NCBI GenBank assembly: GCA_029861535.1
Contig: JAOTZC010000004.1
Span: forward strand, 1-64,000
Direction of reading: 5' to 3'
Length of the DNA stretch: 64,000 bases
From: Gammaproteobacteria bacterium
GTDB taxonomy: Bacteria > Pseudomonadota > Gammaproteobacteria > Steroidobacterales > Woeseiaceae
Under the pieces are notes generated by a model. That model was given only the letters and a program-made list of their open reading frames with translations, searched no databases and was not told the origin of the DNA. Position 1 is the first letter of the stretch; each line of letters opens with the position of its first letter. Of the stretch, positions 24,351 through 31,373 are shown in pieces. A program made the translations under genes and the position numbers.

Positions 24351-24653
24351 ATGAACGGTGAAACGGAGAACGCAAAAGATCCCGACGAGATTGACGACAA
24401 CGTCAATAGTGATGGGGTTGGCGAAGACACCGTCGTCATTGATTCCGATGATGACGAATTCGTGGACAATGTCGGCGATCTTTCAGTCGAATTGAACGTC
24501 GAAGAGCTGGTCGCCAAACTTGAAGCGACGGACTCGGAGGACTCGGGTCGGCAACGTGAGATCAAGCGCCGTCTCGAGGAGAAGCGTGAACAGTGCGAAT
24601 CCGAGAAGGACCTCGGGAGTACCTACAATTTTAACCTCGACGAAGATATCTGA
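24351..24653 (+). CDS. Small acidic hypothetical protein
   Basis: This is a 100-residue, very acidic protein with many Asp/Glu residues in the first half. It contains the segment VEELVAKLEATDSEDSGRQR followed by EIKRRLEEKREQ and a tail YNFNLDEDI. I do not recognise a characterised family, though short acidic proteins with a similar 'VEELVAKLE... RRLEE' core occur in gammaproteobacteria. The ATG at 24351 has AGAGGTG upstream; an in-frame TTG at 24315 is less likely. It lies 113 bp downstream of gspF and converges with dnaE2, with a large hairpin between. Confidence 0.6.
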   Translation: MNGETENAKDPDEIDDNVNSDGVGEDTVVIDSDDDEFVDNVGDLSVELNVEELVAKLEATDSEDSGRQREIKRRLEEKREQCESEKDLGSTYNFNLDEDI

Positions 24654-24665
24654 TTGCGGTTATAG

Positions 24666-24744
24666 GCTGCGGACGTAACGCTCTTCATCGGAAGTAAAGC
24701 GCAGTGCAGCGAGCCATGACGTTGAGGAGCGTTATGTCCGCAGC
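24666..24744. repeat. Hairpin repeat, copy 1 (22-bp arms, conserved 35-nt loop)
   Basis: Arms 24666-24687 and 24723-24744 are complementary with two mismatches. They enclose a 35-nt loop starting TCGGAAGTAAAGCGCAGTGC and ending AGCGAGCCATGACGT. The same loop, differing at five positions, occurs in copy 2 at 31147-31181, where the arms are unrelated. It lies between the convergent acidic gene and dnaE2 and may also act as a transcription attenuator. Confidence 0.8.
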
Positions 24745-24748
24745 ATGT

Positions 24749-27700
24749 TCACCTGAAGTCTCTCGATTTCACGGTTAATCCACCTAACATTTCCGAGTGA
24801 TCGATCAACTGCTTCGCGATTACGTGGATTACTTTGTCTTCGATCTGAACTTCGCCACGCACGCCCATAAGCTTGGCGTTCAGTAGCGCCGCCCGATACT
24901 GATCGGCAATGGCCTTCCAGACGATCAGGTTCATGTGACCGGTTTCATCTTCGAGTGTCACGAAAGTAACGCCGCTTGCAGTTCCGGGACGCTGCTTGGT
25001 GATGACGAGACCCGCAACGCTGATGCACTGTCCGGTTTTAAGCTCCGGCAGCCGCCCGGCCGGGTGATAGTGGTAGCGGTTCAGGCGATCGCGCAGCAGA
25101 TGCATTGGGTGCCGCTCAAGCGTTAAGCCAATACTTTGATAGTCGGCAACGATATTCTGCCCTTCGCTGGGCTTTTTGAGGAGCGGCGCCGCCTCGAAAC
25201 GCTCCATTGACTGAAACAATGCGCTTGGCTTATCGACACCGGCCACCGCCCAGCGGGCCCTGTGGCGATGGCCCTCCAATACCTTCAGGGAACCGGCCGA
25301 CGCGAGCGCTGCAAGCTCGCGTTTATCGAGCCCGGTACGTTCGACGAGTTCTTGGGTACTGCCATAGCTGCCTGCATCGCGTGCGGTTTCGATCATCTGA
25401 CCGCTGTCTTCGGACAGCCCCTTGACCATGCGCAGTCCGAGCCGCATTGCGGCAGCACCATCTTCGCGCACCTCGAGCGTGCAGTCCCAATCACTGCAAT
25501 TAATATCGACCGGCCGTACCTCGACATCGTGTCGTCGCACGTCCTGTACCAGCTGCGACGCCGAATAAAAGCCCATTGGCTGGCTGTTTAACAGCGCCGC
25601 GGTAAACGCGGCCGGTTCATGCCGTTTGAGCCAGCACGACACATAGACAAGCAGCGCGAAACTTGCTGAGTGTGATTCGGGAAAACCATATTCACCGAAA
25701 CCTTCGATCTGTCGAAAAATCTGGCGAGCAAAACCTTCGTTGTAACCGCGCTCACGCATGCCGTTAATCAGCTTTTCCTCAAACGGGCCGAGGCCACCAC
25801 GACGTTTCCAGGCTGCCATCGCACGCCGTAGACGATCCGCCTCGCCAGCGGAAAAACCGGCCGCAACGATCGCCAGTTGCATAACCTGTTCCTGAAAGAT
25901 CGGTACGCCGAGCGTGCGTTGCAGAACGCCCTTCACGTCTTCGCTCGGGTAATCGACAGCCTCCTCGCCGTTTCGACGCCGCAAATACGGATGTACCATG
26001 TCGCCCTGGATCGGTCCGGGACGAATAATCGCCACTTCGATCACCAGGTCGTAGTAACAACGCGGCTTGAGCCGCGGCAACATCGACATCTGCGCGCGCG
26101 ATTCGATCTGGAACACACCCATCGTATCGCCCTCGCAAATCATGTCGTAGACCACCGGATCCTCGGCCGGCATATTTGCAAGCGTGTACTCGCGGCCATC
26201 GAATTTCCGGATCAAATCGAAGCTGCGGCGGATCGCCGTCAGCATGCCAAGACCAAGCACGTCGACCTTGAGCAACCCAAGGTCCTCGAGGTCATCCTTT
26301 TCCCACTGAATGACTGTCCTGTCATCCATGGCGGCATTTTCAACGGGGACGAGTTCGGATAACGGCCCGTTCGATATGACAAAACCGCCAACATGTTGCG
26401 ACAAGTGCCGTGGAAACCCGATCAGCTCGCCGACCAAGTACAGCAAACGTTTGATCACCGGACTATTGGGGCTCAAGCCGGCCTCGAGAATACGACTTTC
26501 ATCGACCTGCTTGCCGTCCCACCACTGCATCGACCGCGATAGGCGGCCAACCTGCAGATCGCTTAAGCCCAGTGCCTTGCCGACATCGCGTAGCGCGCTG
26601 CGCGGCCGGTAGGTAATCACCGTCGCGGCGAGTGCTGCCCGTTCGCGCCCGTACTTCTGATAGATGTACTGAATCACCTCCTCGCGACGTTCGTGTTCGA
26701 AGTCGACGTCGATATCCGGCGGTTCGTTGCGCTCCTTCGAAATAAATCGTTCGACGAGCATCGCCATACGAGCCGGATCGACTTCAGTGATACCTAAACA
26801 AAAACACACGGCCGAGTTCGCCGCGGAGCCTCTGCCTTGGCACAAAATGCCCTTCGAGCGCGCGAACGCGACGATGTCATAGACCGTCAGGAAGTACGGC
26901 TCATAATCGAGGTCGGCAATCAGTTGTAGTTCGTGCTCGATTAGCCGGACGACCTTATCCGGCACGCCGAGAGGCCAGCGCCGCCGCATACCCTCTTCGG
27001 TCAGGCGCCGTAGATAGCTCGCTGTTGTTTCGTCGTCGGGCACAATTTCGTCTGGGTATTCATAGCGAATCTCATCGAGTGAAAAATGCATCGCGGCGGC
27101 GATATGCACAGATTCGGCCAGCAGGTCGACAGGATAGATGCGTTGTAAAAGCTCGATTGAACGCAGGTGCCGCTCACCGTTCGGATACAACAGGAAACCT
27201 GCTTGATCGATCACGATGCGTTCGCGAATCGCTGTCAGCGCGTCCTGCAAAATTCGCCGTGAACGGCGGTGCATGTGCACATCGCCGCAGGCAACAAGTG
27301 GCAGCTTCAGGCGCCGGCCGGTGTCACGAAGCCGCGCGAGCTGTTCGCGTTGCCGGCCGTCCGCGAGTAGCTCAACGGCAATCCACAAACGATCACGAAA
27401 TGTCTCGCGTATCCAATGGTCCTCGACATCGAGCGAAAACTGATCGTCGGGCACCCATATCACGACGCAATCCGGCAAACCGCTGTCGAAATCGAGCCGC
27501 GTGAGCTCGTAGTGACCTTTATCCGCCGCGCGCCGTGCGCGCGTGATCAGCTCACAGAGTGCCGCATAGCCGGTGCAACTTTTCGCCAGCACGATGAGCT
27601 TGCGGCCACTGCGCAAGCGCAGTTCGGAACCGATGATGAGTTTCTTAAGACCACATTCTTTCGCCGCCATGTGCGCGCGCACGATGCCGGACATCGAACA

Positions 27701-27838
27701 CTCGTCGGTGATCGCGAGTGCTTCATAACCGAGTGCGGCGGCCGTCTCGACGAGTTCCTCGGGGTGCGATGCACCTCTTAAGAACGTGAAATTGGATATC
27801 GCATGCAGCTCGGCATAACGGCAGTGCCGCGTGTTCAT
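24749..27838 (-). CDS. dnaE2: Error-prone DNA polymerase DnaE2 (ImuC)
   Basis: This is a 1029-residue C-family polymerase, the catalytic member of the SOS mutasome with ImuA and ImuB. I use the ATG at 27838, which overlaps the imuB stop (TAATG); an in-frame start nine codons upstream is possible. An N-terminal PHP domain starts YAELHAISNFTFLRGASHPE. The palm has the catalytic acidic motif PPDIDVDFEHERREEVIQYI. The SQHVGGFVIS and GFGEYGFPESHSASFALLVY segments follow. A C-terminal OB domain ends with VTFVTLEDETGHMNLIVWKA. It is the last gene of the lexA-imuA-imuB-dnaE2 operon. Confidence 0.96.
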   Translation of the reverse strand: MNTRHCRYAELHAISNFTFLRGASHPEELVETAAALGYEALAITDECSMSGIVRAHMAAKECGLKKLIIGSELRLRSGRKLIVLAKSCTGYAALCELITRARRAADKGHYELTRLDFDSGLPDCVVIWVPDDQFSLDVEDHWIRETFRDRLWIAVELLADGRQREQLARLRDTGRRLKLPLVACGDVHMHRRSRRILQDALTAIRERIVIDQAGFLLYPNGERHLRSIELLQRIYPVDLLAESVHIAAAMHFSLDEIRYEYPDEIVPDDETTASYLRRLTEEGMRRRWPLGVPDKVVRLIEHELQLIADLDYEPYFLTVYDIVAFARSKGILCQGRGSAANSAVCFCLGITEVDPARMAMLVERFISKERNEPPDIDVDFEHERREEVIQYIYQKYGRERAALAATVITYRPRSALRDVGKALGLSDLQVGRLSRSMQWWDGKQVDESRILEAGLSPNSPVIKRLLYLVGELIGFPRHLSQHVGGFVISNGPLSELVPVENAAMDDRTVIQWEKDDLEDLGLLKVDVLGLGMLTAIRRSFDLIRKFDGREYTLANMPAEDPVVYDMICEGDTMGVFQIESRAQMSMLPRLKPRCYYDLVIEVAIIRPGPIQGDMVHPYLRRRNGEEAVDYPSEDVKGVLQRTLGVPIFQEQVMQLAIVAAGFSAGEADRLRRAMAAWKRRGGLGPFEEKLINGMRERGYNEGFARQIFRQIEGFGEYGFPESHSASFALLVYVSCWLKRHEPAAFTAALLNSQPMGFYSASQLVQDVRRHDVEVRPVDINCSDWDCTLEVREDGAAAMRLGLRMVKGLSEDSGQMIETARDAGSYGSTQELVERTGLDKRELAALASAGSLKVLEGHRHRARWAVAGVDKPSALFQSMERFEAAPLLKKPSEGQNIVADYQSIGLTLERHPMHLLRDRLNRYHYHPAGRLPELKTGQCISVAGLVITKQRPGTASGVTFVTLEDETGHMNLIVWKAIADQYRAALLNAKLMGVRGEVQIEDKVIHVIAKQLIDHSEMLGGLTVKSRDFR

Positions 27839-29454
27839 TATCCAAAGATGCCGTGTAGGTACCAATCAGACCGCGTGCTGCGATTCTTAAAAATCCACAA
27901 CCGCATGCCACGCGGATTAATGGCCGTGTAGTAATCACGGGCAATCCCATTCTCATCCCACCAGCCAGTCTCGAGACGCTCAGGGCCTTCGAGCAACCTC
28001 AGCCGGCCGAGATGTAGCGGGTAGCCTTCTTCGGCGTGCAGCGGTGCCGGTTCGGGCAACATCCACAGCGGCCGCTTAAGGCCGCGTTTGACGAACGACA
28101 GCGCATCACTGACTTTGCCAGCCAGCAGATTGCGCGAGCGCCACGCAAGCTGTGGCCGATGTTCGGCCACCGTCGCCACGCCGTTCACCGACTGGTTGCC
28201 GATACGCGCCACCAAACGTTCGGCCAGTTGCGTCATCGAATAACGTTCGCTTCCCTCTGCGCGTCCCTGAAACGCCAGACGTCCGGACTCGGCCTGCAGC
28301 GGCTGTGTATGTCCGCCCTGCAGACGAACCGCAATCACAGGTTCGGGCAAACCTAGGCGTTCGAAACGAATACTCAACAGCTCCGACCAGCGCTTCGCCG
28401 ATCGATCCGCCTGCATGCAACCGAGTGACAACTTCGTCGCCGCTGCTTTAAGGTGATAAAAACTGAAACACAGTCGCTGCGTACCTAGTTGTCGCACGAG
28501 CAAAAACTGTTCGTGCGCCACCAGCAGTTCGCGACAGATCGCCAGCAGTAATTCGCGATCACTCTGTTCCTCAATCATTTCGTAGTCGGCACAGAAATGT
28601 TCAGGCGCACGCCAGGAGGTTCGTGGGTCCGGCAGCCGGCCGACCGCACGATCGAGTTCGATCAGCCGCTTCGCACCGAACCGCCGCGCAAAACCTTCGC
28701 GCGGTAGCCGCAGGCAATCACCAATCTTCGTAATACCCATGCCCGCCAGCGATTCGGTAGCCGCCACCGGCCAATCGAGGCAGTACAACGGCAACTTTCT
28801 GAGTATCGGCACCAGATTCGTGGCCTCGCGCACGCAGACACGTCGCCCACCGCGCGCAAGCCAGGTCGCCGCAAGCGGTGTCGGCGCAATCGAAAGCGAT
28901 GCGGCGAAGCCCTGCCGTTCGAGACCTTTAGACACCTGTTGGCGCAGACTTTGCAAACCGCCATACAGGCGCAGGCTGCCCGCGATTTCGAGTAGCAGTA
29001 CATCGCTGCTGACGATCGACACAAACGATGAAAACTGTTCGAGCCAGGCGGCGAGTGACTCGAGTACCTGCTGCTCTTTTAGTGTGCAGCGCTCCTCGAG
29101 TTCGAGCTCCGGCAACAGCGCCAGTGCGGCATTCGCCGATTGCCCCGGCATGACGCCAGCCGCAATGGCTGCTTCGTTCGCAAGTAGCACGCGATGAATG
29201 CCGTGTTGGTCTTCCACTACGGCCAAGGGTGCTGTGCCCTTGCCGCTAGCCTCCAGTGACAGGTTTGGCAGATACACGCAGAACCAGAGCCGCCGTGTTG
29301 CCGTGCTTAAAGGCGTGGATTCAGACGGCGGTGCGGCGTCGGCGAGCGGCAGTAACACCTGCAGGCCATCAGGCTTTGCACCATGATGGATTTTCCCTGG
29401 CGGAGCCGGGGCCGCCTCCCGCGCCAGAACAGGATTTTTAGTGGTACGGGCCAC
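27838..29454 (-). CDS. imuB: DNA polymerase Y-family-like protein ImuB
   Basis: ImuB resembles Y-family polymerases but is catalytically inactive and serves as the beta-clamp-binding hub of the mutasome. The core starts RRLWFCVYLPNLSLEASG and includes PLAVVEDQHGIHRVLLANEA, later LPREGFARRFGAKRLIELDR. The start is uncertain: a GTG at 29454 gives 538 residues with AGG upstream, and a TTG at 29472 would add six. Both carry about 50 residues before the conserved core. The segment before the start lies in a 31-bp inverted repeat. It is translationally coupled to dnaE2. Confidence 0.88.
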   Translation of the reverse strand: MARTTKNPVLAREAAPAPPGKIHHGAKPDGLQVLLPLADAAPPSESTPLSTATRRLWFCVYLPNLSLEASGKGTAPLAVVEDQHGIHRVLLANEAAIAAGVMPGQSANAALALLPELELEERCTLKEQQVLESLAAWLEQFSSFVSIVSSDVLLLEIAGSLRLYGGLQSLRQQVSKGLERQGFAASLSIAPTPLAATWLARGGRRVCVREATNLVPILRKLPLYCLDWPVAATESLAGMGITKIGDCLRLPREGFARRFGAKRLIELDRAVGRLPDPRTSWRAPEHFCADYEMIEEQSDRELLLAICRELLVAHEQFLLVRQLGTQRLCFSFYHLKAAATKLSLGCMQADRSAKRWSELLSIRFERLGLPEPVIAVRLQGGHTQPLQAESGRLAFQGRAEGSERYSMTQLAERLVARIGNQSVNGVATVAEHRPQLAWRSRNLLAGKVSDALSFVKRGLKRPLWMLPEPAPLHAEEGYPLHLGRLRLLEGPERLETGWWDENGIARDYYTAINPRGMRLWIFKNRSTRSDWYLHGIFG

Positions 29455-29457
29455 CTC

Positions 29458-29591
29458 AGAACCTCGGAGCAACTATTTCATGGCGGCGTTGCAATGGCTC
29501 GACAGACCTAAGGGTATGTTGTCGCCATTGCGCCTTGTTCTTCGAGCTATCCGCCTCCGGCGCCGTCATGAATTAGTTGCTCCGAGGTTCT
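29458..29591. repeat. Long inverted repeat between imuA and imuB
   Basis: Arms 29458-29488 and 29561-29591 (31 nt each) are complementary except for two positions; the outer 18 bp are perfect. Inside, GCAATGGC and GCCATTGC form a further partial stem. The structure fills the imuA-imuB gap, contains the imuA stop codon in one arm, and abuts the imuB start with the other. It could attenuate or uncouple imuB translation within the operon. Confidence 0.85.
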
Positions 29592-30237
29592 AGCCCGAGA
29601 AAATACTGTGCAGCCTTACCGGACGGCCGCCACGACTTTTGAAAACGTGGATATGGGTGCCCGCCTGGTCTGCCTGCATTTCGATACGCAACGCCGCCGC
29701 CGATGGCTCGTGACGGGCCGTGGCTGGCCGAAACGCGATCGCCCAGCTTCTCCCTTTTTCCGCCGCAAGCTGCAAGCGGCGACTGTCCTGATCGTTAAGC
29801 GTCTCGGGCCACAGCAACACTGCCGCACAGGTGCCCGAGGCCAACGCCTGCTCGGCGGACCAAAGGATTTCGCTGTCGTCTTTTGGCCGCACGATCAGCA
29901 ATCGCGACAGATTGATGCCCCAGGCATCGAGCGCGGGTGGATACGGTTGAAACGGTGGCGCTACCCAGGCAATCCAGCCAGGCTCAGTGTAAGGGACGAC
30001 CGGGTCGTCGGCGCTGAGCCGCGACAATGCTGGCATTAACAGCTTAAGCTCACCGATGCCGTACTGCTCGGTCAGTATTTCGGTCAGCGAATGTTGCGGC
30101 CAACCACCGCCAGGCAGATGACGGTCAAGCTTTTCATATCCGCTTGAAAGCCCGGCTTCGGTTTGAGCGTGCGCGCGACCGCGCCAGACGTGCGGATTTT
30201 CGAGCAGTTGTTCGAGTGATGATGAATCGCGCGGCAT
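29590..30237 (-). CDS. imuA: Translesion synthesis-associated protein ImuA
   Basis: This is a 215-residue RecA/SulA-related protein of the damage-inducible mutasome. Family features are LSSGYEKLDRHLPGGGWPQH, SLTEILTEQYGIGELKLLMP and WIAWVAPPFQPYPPALDAWG, with a C-terminal tail ending RPVRLHSIFSG. There is no intact Walker A (GxxxxGKT) motif, as is common for ImuA. It lies 12 bp downstream of lexA, so both are likely transcribed from the lexA promoter and induced together. Confidence 0.9.
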   Translation of the reverse strand: MPRDSSSLEQLLENPHVWRGRAHAQTEAGLSSGYEKLDRHLPGGGWPQHSLTEILTEQYGIGELKLLMPALSRLSADDPVVPYTEPGWIAWVAPPFQPYPPALDAWGINLSRLLIVRPKDDSEILWSAEQALASGTCAAVLLWPETLNDQDSRRLQLAAEKGRSWAIAFRPATARHEPSAAALRIEMQADQAGTHIHVFKSRGGRPVRLHSIFSG

Positions 30238-30249
30238 ACCCGAAACCCA

Positions 30250-30867
30250 TCAATGCAATGGCAAACCATCGCGAATAACGCCGACCACGACTCCTTCGAT
30301 GACCATTACCTGTTCGCTTAAGTCGACCTGGATCGGTTCAAACTCGTCGTTTTCAGGCAACAGCCAGACCAGCTTGCCGTCCTGGCGGTAACGTTTGACC
30401 GTTACCTCGTCATCGAGACGCGCCACGACAATCTGTCGGCTGCGGACTTCGGGTGTGCGGTGCACCGCGACCAGATCGCCGTCTAAAATGCCGGCGTCCT
30501 TCATACTCATGCCGTGTACCCGCAACAGGTAATGCGGTTTCGGATTGAAAAGCGCCGGATCGAGCCGGTAATGCGTTTCGATGTGTTCCTCTGCGAGGAT
30601 GGGACTACCAGCCGCAACCCGACCTACGAGCGGCAGCCCCATCTGTTCACGCAGGGAATCCTTGAGCTGAATACCGCGAGAGGCGCCCGGCACAAGCTCT
30701 AATACCCCCTTCTTCTGCAGCGCCCGCAAATGCTCTTCGGCAGCATTGGCCGACTTGAAACCGAGCTCATTGGCGATCTCGGCGCGCGTCGGCGGCATCC
30801 CCGTTTCGGCGATAAAGTCCTGGATCGTCTCGAGAATTTGCTTTTGTCTGGGGGTCAGTGGGCGCAT
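30250..30867 (-). CDS. lexA: SOS repressor LexA
   Basis: This is a 205-residue repressor of the DNA-damage response. A winged-helix domain starts [20 protein letters not shown] with recognition region [20 protein letters not shown]. The latent protease has the self-cleavage site Ala86-Gly87 (VGRVAAGSP), nucleophile Ser121 (HGMSMKDAG) and Lys158 (DDEVTVKRY). I chose the ATG at 30867, matching the family, over an in-frame start 22 codons upstream. Two LexA boxes overlap its own promoter, so it is autoregulated. It heads the operon with imuA, imuB and dnaE2. Confidence 0.97.
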
Positions 30868-30877
30868 TTCAGCAGTC

Positions 30878-30893
30878 CTGTATGAATTCACAG
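30878..30893. promoter_or_regulatory. LexA box 1 (perfect CTGT-N8-ACAG)
   Basis: CTGTATGAATTCACAG matches the gammaproteobacterial SOS consensus exactly. It begins 11 bp upstream of the lexA ATG, between the -10 element and the start codon. Confidence 0.9.
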
Positions 30894-30896
30894 TAC

Positions 30897-30912
30897 CTGC
30901 GATTATATACAG
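30897..30912. promoter_or_regulatory. LexA box 2 overlapping the lexA -10
   Basis: Read on the minus strand this is CTGTATATAATCGCAG, one mismatch from CTGT-N8-ACAG. It contains the TATAAT -10 hexamer (30902-30907). It is 3 bp from box 1, 19 bp centre to centre, similar to the tandem sites upstream of E. coli lexA. Confidence 0.85.
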
Positions 30913-30929
30913 TAGTTTGCTCAGTGCAA
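30902..30929 (-). promoter_or_regulatory. lexA-imuA-imuB-dnaE2 promoter
   Basis: On the minus strand TTGCAC (30924-30929) and TATAAT (30902-30907) are 16 bp apart. The -10 is inside LexA box 2 and box 1 lies just downstream, so LexA would block polymerase binding directly. Confidence 0.7.
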
Positions 30930-30976
30930 GCACCCCACCACTTGAGACTCTGAGAGCAATACGCGGTAGGCGGCGA

Positions 30977-31204
30977 TACAGCGGGTGGTATGCCTCTCAT
31001 CGTCATGGCTCGGTCCGAGGCGATACGCCGGGTATCTGGTGAGTGCGACGACATCTCCCTCACTCGGGGGCCGCTTTGCTCAACTCGCTCGGCAGACGCC
31101 GCCGCGCTCACCGCATGCAGCTGTACAGCGGGTGGCAAGCCTCTCAGCGGAAGTAAAGCGCAGCGTAGCGAGCCATGACGATGAGAGGCATACCACCCGC
31201 TGTA
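30977..31204. repeat. Compound inverted-repeat block upstream of lexA and the lipoprotein gene
   Basis: A 36-bp perfect inverted repeat joins 30977-31012 to 31169-31204. Inside it, 31038-31056 pairs with 31094-31112 (15 of 19 positions, all mismatches transitions) around a 37-nt loop. Next to that is the copy-2 hairpin at 31124-31204. The block fills most of the divergent region between lexA and the lipoprotein gene and holds no gene. Confidence 0.85.
31124..31204. repeat. Hairpin repeat, copy 2 (23-bp arms, conserved 35-nt loop)
   Basis: Arms 31124-31146 and 31182-31204 pair with two mismatches around a 35-nt loop starting GCGGAAGTAAAGCGCAGCGT. The loop matches copy 1 (24688-24722) at 30 of 35 positions, while the arms are different sequences. 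Confidence 0.85.
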
Positions 31205-31239
31205 CCTTCCAGGTCTGTAGTGGTGCTTACACGCGGGTT

Positions 31240-31263
31240 TTTTGTCGCAAGGAGGCGACAAAA
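31240..31263 (+). promoter_or_regulatory. Hairpin presenting AAGGAG in its loop
   Basis: TTTTGTCGC and GCGACAAAA form a perfect 9-bp stem whose 6-nt loop is exactly AAGGAG. An ATG follows eight bases after that sequence. No T-tract follows, so it is not a standard terminator. Confidence 0.6.
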
Positions 31264-31373
31264 TGCAATTAAAACAGGCATATTCATTGCAGCCCCCGAA
31301 TAATTGCGAAATAATCCGCCTGCCGTTTTTTCCCAACAGAGGAATATTGGAAAATGAAAAAGACCGTAATTAA
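31263..31373 (+). CDS. Possible 36-codon leader ORF overlapping the lipoprotein start
   Basis: An ATG with an ideal Shine-Dalgarno (AAGGAG, 8-nt spacing) opens a short frame starting MQLKQAYSLQPPNNCEIIRL and stopping 20 nt inside the lipoprotein gene, in another frame. The predicted lipoprotein promoter (TTGCAG at 31287-31292, AATAAT at 31310-31315) lies inside this frame, so it would be made only from an upstream promoter. Treat as speculative. Confidence 0.25.
   Translation: MQLKQAYSLQPPNNCEIIRLPFFPNRGILENEKDRN
31287..31315 (+). promoter_or_regulatory. Putative promoter of the murein-lipoprotein-like gene
   Basis: TTGCAG and AATAAT are separated by 17 bp, giving a start near 31322 and a leader of about 30 nt that contains GAGGA ahead of the ATG. 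It is a reasonable sigma-70 match for a gene expected to be highly expressed. Confidence 0.4.

Follow-up and report, generated by a model that had tools for sequence, protein, structure and literature searches.

The window analysed here comprises the first 64,000 nucleotides of contig JAOTZC010000004.1 from a Woeseiaceae assembly (GCA_029861535.1). It carries two 81-bp hairpins belonging to a dispersed family of palindromic elements in which a central internal loop is conserved and the flanking arms keep their pairing rather than their sequence. Element 1 is flanked by convergent open reading frames (ORFs) that end at 24653 and 24749. Element 2 lies in the spacer between a lexA-like ORF (start 30933, minus strand), upstream of which it is positioned, and a lipoprotein-like ORF (start 31354, plus strand); these names, like that of an ImuB-like ORF mentioned below, are our reading of the ORF translations. 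A truncated, inverted half copy precedes element 2 by 111 nt, and its arm matches element 2's right arm, reverse-complemented, at 26 of 26 positions. The features are as follows.

24665..24745, plus strand: element 1, full 81-bp hairpin (covariance-model score 90.3 bits)
24665..24690, plus strand: element 1, left arm, 26 nt (22 Watson-Crick and 2 G.T among the 26 pairs with the right arm)
24691..24719, plus strand: element 1, core, 29 nt, an asymmetric internal loop with strands GAAGTAAAGCGCA (24691-24703) and GAGCCATGA (24711-24719)
24704-24710, plus strand: element 1, apical mini-hairpin GTGCAGC, enclosed by both internal-loop strands
24720..24745, plus strand: element 1, right arm, 26 nt, placed by the alignment of copies
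31124..31204, plus strand: element 2, full 81-bp hairpin (covariance-model score 92.4 bits)
31124..31149, plus strand: element 2, left arm, 26 nt (23 of 26 pairs Watson-Crick)
31150..31178, plus strand: element 2, core, 29 nt (internal-loop strands 31150-31162 and 31170-31178)
31163-31169, plus strand: element 2, apical mini-hairpin GCGTAGC, enclosed by both internal-loop strands
31179..31204, plus strand: element 2, right arm, 26 nt, pairing with the left arm
30977..31012, minus strand: truncated inverted half copy (arm 30977-31002, then 10 nt of inverted core, 31003-31012)

Folded as single-stranded DNA, each hairpin reaches -26.3 kcal/mol, with z-scores of -6.25 (element 1) and -6.58 (element 2) against 200 dinucleotide-preserving shuffles, none of which equalled either hairpin. 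The cores are identical at 27 of 29 positions and the surrounding 35-nt block at 32 of 35. The original prediction, a note made on this DNA beforehand, had described two hairpins with a near-constant middle, their loops agreeing at 30 of 35 positions; the hairpins are indeed present, and our count is similar within slightly different bounds. Its statement that the arms are unrelated in sequence was too strong, since the two elements share 14 of 26 letters in their left arms and 15 of 26 in their right arms, and mean arm identity over 50 rows from the source genome is 26.1 of 52 letters, compared with 14.0 when letters are shuffled within each arm, indicating a weak consensus. It also made no mention of the half copy at 30977..31012.

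Copies in the source genome align without gaps as 26-nt arms around the 29-nt core, and conservation stops sharply 26 nt to either side of the core, so that the element has fixed outer bounds; no conserved bases outside the arms, including a GTAG or CGTC tag or any tetranucleotide, were found in 50 rows from the source genome and 133 other rows. Across 49 copies, 92.5% of stem cells are paired (65.2% after shuffling), each of the 28 pairs has changed in both partners, and covariation scores 0.759 (0.218 shuffled), a value reached by none of 500 shuffles. A constant core with self-complementary variable flanks thus defines a real family, and the arms do preserve pairing rather than sequence, both as originally predicted. 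The covariation extends over two helices, as two of the 28 pairs fall inside what had been called a single 35-nt loop and form the apical mini-hairpin, usually GC-GNA-GC. In relatives from the genus this apical hairpin differs in sequence and length and the strands beside it are unchanged, with at least one longer form in 15 of 61 genomes; four-base apical loops read GNNA, the third base being mostly a pyrimidine. In DNA, loops of the GNA and GNNA types have very high stability. Since the apical hairpins vary, and since the stem in two relatives, G005 and G061, extends up to ATAAAGCG and GAGCCAT (G-numbers denote genomes searched, L-numbers loci fetched and C-numbers contigs), the conserved part is the asymmetric internal loop GAAGTAAAGCGCA / GAGCCATGA and not a hairpin loop. 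By inspection its consensus is at least RTAAAGCGSA / GAGCCAT. Six copies in the source genome (L352-L357), 126-128 nt long, have another variable stretch enclosed by an additional constant frame, GCGTATTCAAC...GCTATCGGACC; an exact pattern for this frame gave 5 matches in the source genome and 0 in 60 other genomes of the genus. At L279 (G007 C5) an otherwise normal element has a long GC-rich stem between A and T runs in place of the apical hairpin, resembling a bidirectional terminator.

The family is large. With up to 3 mismatches the core pattern matched 49 times in the whole source genome (reversed control, 0), and a covariance model built from those copies gave 70 matches at E <= 1, of which 7 were counted as opposite-strand shadows, leaving 63 distinct places, two of them partial. 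The majority of model matches exceed 60 bits and decayed copies are few. The exact core pattern matched in 15 of 60 relatives including the source genome itself, all of the same genus, and was absent, as a variable-gap pattern, from an evenly drawn set of 368 further genomes of the class, one of which belongs to the same genus, a search that diverged cores would escape. Indeed, exact patterns overlook such cores: the covariance model at E <= 1e-4 recovered the element in 48 of 61 genomes of the genus, with at most 64 matches per genome. The search for further copies that the original prediction proposed therefore succeeded, at about 60 places in the source genome and in most genomes of the genus. 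Outside it, a contig scan of species genomes had Coxiellaceae and Myxococcota records among the matches listed, and the covariance model at E <= 0.001 found 28 and 33 matches in two Coxiellaceae metagenome-assembled genomes (MAGs) and 4 in one Myxococcota MAG, in which a binning error is possible; in these copies the arms differ and the core is the same. An origin from phages or plasmids was considered and rejected: at least 80% of the core occurred in none of 72,556 plasmid and 50,697 phage records, and viral contigs held no exact match. A literature search on conserved-loop or internal-loop repeats, double-hairpin elements, Woeseiaceae repeats and substrings of the core retrieved no description of the element.

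The element is extragenic and lies mostly downstream of genes. Among 196 rows, 78 are in convergent, 66 in tandem and 18 in divergent neighbourhoods, 23 fall in a crude ORF call and 11 at an edge; in the source genome the settings are 29 convergent, 17 tandem and 3 divergent. Copies often come in pairs: of 24 pairs less than 400 nt apart, 22 are arranged (-,+) and 2 (-,-), and a further 19 close pairs bear out the predominance of (-,+). The spacers of three such dimers (L118, L153, L284) contain GTAGGAGC-type palindromes, which resemble ordinary GTAG REPs. Near-identical arms occur at non-orthologous loci of the same genome in relatives, with 50 of 52 arm letters shared by L151 and L162 and 49 of 52 by L156 and L184, which means that the element spreads as a unit and that its arms diverge afterwards. 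Copies sharing arms as well as loop were what the original prediction had named as contrary to it.

How the arms stay matched as they diverge is best seen in the G005 dimer family, 7 copies with alignable spacers. Here 186 of 189 stem cells are Watson-Crick pairs, 12 of 27 pair columns vary, every one on both sides, and pairwise changes comprise 115 mirrored, 5 one-sided unpaired and 12 one-sided G.T. Even a one-base length difference is mirrored across both arms (L438/L445 compared with L439-L442). Averaged over pairs of copies, the arms have diverged by 0.22, the spacer by 0.24 and the core by 0.03. Selection acting through unpaired intermediates should slow arm divergence, and we therefore favour arm-to-arm copying: arms that drift like the spacer yet stay paired fit the prediction of such copying by template switching, which elsewhere homogenises the arms of inverted repeats and inverts their spacers, as far as the portions of the two studies cited here describe it (PMC8604942, PMC8794818). 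The G005 'B' (4 copies) and G061 'B' (6 copies) families present a similar picture.

Inversion is also observed. We found 139 orthologous-site pairs; loci were mostly fetched for holding the element, which biases co-occupancy upward, and no retention rate is drawn from them. Among the 75 with one counted element each, the element is inverted in 3 of 11 pairs with arms alike (at least 36 of 52 letters), 9 of 14 intermediate pairs and 24 of 50 pairs of low identity (fewer than 30 of 52). Three pairs are inverted with arms still recognisable: L250/L261, L134/L239 and L175/L202, the last with another element close to L202. L248/L243, which lies at a contig edge, is inverted too. Inversion in place is convincing for the class with arms alike. 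Inversions of low identity are explained equally well by independent insertion or replacement at hotspots.

Base pairing also bears on which strand acts. With five loop-near positions excluded and weak stems dropped, G.T outnumbers A.C on the motif strand by 53 to 11 in 45 stems from the source genome and by 215 to 32 in 122 other stems. The excess holds for copies antisense (48 and 5, 25 copies) and sense (49 and 8, 31 copies) to tandem neighbours, and because it is found in antisense copies too, the motif strand is probably the one that folds. It is possible that the element is a structured RNA, a folded transcript of the motif strand whose internal loop a protein or RNase reads at the 3' ends of mRNAs, with ordinary compensatory mutation, under selection for pairing alone, maintaining the stems. 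RNAs typically have conserved internal loops flanked by covarying helices, pairs of the G.U type are tolerated here and A.C avoided, and the copies lie mostly behind genes. However, orientation relative to tandem genes is even (34 sense, 32 antisense), the G.T bias is equally strong in antisense copies, orthologous copies are sometimes inverted, and the apical GNNA tetraloops with their pyrimidine differ from RNA GNRA loops. Moreover, arms that diverge as fast as the spacer exceed what selection through unpaired intermediates would allow. No Rfam family reached its gathering score within the window; between 24600 and 24800 at E <= 1, only MIR814 appeared, its 26.4 bits falling short of the gathering score of 90. 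Thus, G.T bias and even orientation point to folded DNA rather than to an mRNA element, although antisense transcripts may be involved, and we regard the RNA explanation as unlikely.

The scenario towards which we lean is a dispersed, REP/BIME-like palindromic element that is recognised through its internal loop and whose stems are homogenised by template switching. The recognition target would be the asymmetric internal loop GAAGTAAAGCGCA / GAGCCATGA on one strand, with an apical hairpin on one side and an outer stem of about 26 bp on the other, both free in sequence, and the acting form would be single-stranded DNA rather than RNA. A putative protein may bind this loop and move or keep the element. 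The whole element would spread, as a single copy or as an inverted (-,+) pair, landing for the most part close behind genes. Once inserted, its stem would drift, and the hairpin, forming during replication, would allow one arm to be templated on the other, such that mutations are either lost or mirrored; the same template switching could invert the element in place.

Several observations weigh against this scenario. No transposase for the element and no target duplication at insertion sites were found. Of the loci sought without the element, as the original prediction had suggested, only L193/L141 is a clean empty site, with a flank identity of 76.6%, and it may be a deletion; two others, L109/L307 and L155/L172, seemed empty at first sight and were not clean on inspection. 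Dimers are nearly always (-,+), and in-place inversion is therefore infrequent inside them. The equality of arm and spacer divergence comes from a single family of 7 copies, with non-independent pairwise values and one spacer aligned over 38 nt, and the G005 spacer may itself be constrained. At the G061 'A' ends 96 of 189 cells pair in a fixed register, which is unfit for scoring. Compensation between orthologous copies is weaker than in the G005 dimers: 16 pairs with similar arms (17 were listed, and the spurious L130/L238, at 87.6% and with no real element, was subtracted) have 32 mirrored paired changes and 15 double changes of other kinds, together with one-sided changes that leave the position unpaired (51) or as G.T (16). 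The compensatory changes that the original prediction proposed to look for are accordingly strong in all 28 pairs of the family alignment and weaker between orthologues. Lastly, a surplus of G.T on one strand is not expected from pure template switching and calls for strand-specific selection in addition.

An ordinary REP or REPIN mobilised by a RAYT (Y1 HuH transposase) would account for the inverted pairs, heterotypic ends, extragenic sites and imperfect palindromes, features common to REPs in the sections of PMC3733652 used here. However, the core occurs in 0 of 30 fetched Y1_Tnp loci (about 1.5 kb on each side), at least 10 model matches are found in 9 of 24 Y1-positive and 6 of 13 Y1-negative genomes of the genus, and sizes and stems are unlike those of REPs, with no conserved tetranucleotide outside the stem. 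A RAYT or Y1 transposase as the mover is thus rejected, being associated neither with the loci nor with copy number, and an ordinary REP is an improbable identity for the element. Least credible, and very improbable in our view, is the earlier model in which the core drives an inverted duplication of local DNA, each arm being local sequence: the arms do vary between copies and a few target bases at the empty site L193/L141 match the foot of the stem, but arm length is fixed at 26 nt with a consensus common to copies, the same arms at unrelated loci largely refute it, and the empty site lacks the arm. What survives of that model is copying from arm to arm, which fits the G005 dimers.

The original prediction knew of no described class of this design, but extragenic palindromes of the REP/BIME/REPIN kind are near neighbours. 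As characterised in the consulted sections of PMC3733652, REPs of the GTAG and CGTC super-families span 20-40 bp, with stems of 5-13 bp, short loops and, at one end, an unpaired tag, GTAG or CGTC. Like REPs and BIMEs in that account, our element is dispersed and extragenic, lies mostly behind genes in convergent or tandem settings, forms inverted pairs, often of two subtypes, and has mirrored stem changes and G.T pairs. Unlike a REP, it measures at least 81 bp, has 26-bp stems and no tag, and its conserved part is an internal loop within the hairpin. REPINs, according to the excerpts of PMC3116915 and PMC8266576 available to us, have conserved ends and a variable middle; they share with our element inverted doublets spreading within the genome, compensatory hairpin changes and, in the REPIN/RAYT system, recognition of folded single-stranded DNA, whereas here the middle is conserved, the ends are variable and no RAYT link was found. 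Template switching reshapes inverted repeats in yeast (PMC8604942), RNA hairpins (PMC8794818) and plastid trnH-psbA loop inversions (PMC2903610), where, in the passages considered, arms are likewise homogenised and the spacer between them can invert; those cases are single loci or short stems, unlike a fixed-core family dispersed over dozens of places per genome. In how it works the element is akin both to REP/BIME elements and to template-switched inverted repeats. We class it among extragenic palindromic repeats, as a variant conserved in its middle and free at its ends that differs from REPs in size, stem, tag and RAYT association.

Integron attC sites and the ends of IS200/IS605 elements are strand-specific folded DNAs with variable stems, identified by their structure and by a handful of unpaired bases. 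Our element resembles them, compared by description only, in its probable strand-specific folding with free stems; neither an integrase nor an insertion sequence was linked to it, though no search aimed at R'/R'' core boxes, an IntI integrase or IS200/IS605 ends was made. A further proposal, which we advance tentatively and consider possible though doubtful, is that it represents a class of strand-specific folded DNA in Woeseiaceae, Coxiellaceae and Myxococcota MAGs, read only through the internal loop, with self-repairing stems free of sequence constraint and spread by an enzyme other than the known RAYTs. If so, dozens of copies per genome would record, in nature, the rates of template switching. 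That the core is nearly identical in distant taxa points to a putative factor that reads the folded DNA strand. Compensatory change in stems is usually taken as proof of structural selection; one family suggests that paired stems can drift at the pace of a spacer, in which case covariation would be partly a mutational product. Scattered self-pairing hairpins provide a natural test of how stems stay matched during evolution: with the core as fixed internal reference, dimer spacers as rate yardstick and orthologues in both orientations, selection and template switching become measurable.

The spacer occupied by element 2 looks like an insertion hotspot. Inspected by eye in 20 regions, the lexA spacer has the element in 4 (G020, G025, G027, G007) and none was seen in 16, the flanks being too diverged for clean empty sites. 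Across this spacer (30934-31353 in the window, and 20 relatives) palindromes and repeats differ by species, for example in G034, G018 and G006. In the widest close pair examined (G005 C15), the two divergent elements are separated by 1.57 kb and enclose a 375-aa ORF (L426:1283-2410) among otherwise ordinary genes; this pair was considered as an autonomous copy and discarded, as the ORF has no Pfam match and is not a recognisable transposase. The window also holds a different palindrome, a 31-nt inverted repeat (29458-29488 and 29561-29591, 94% complementary, 72 nt between) adjoining the ImuB-like ORF.

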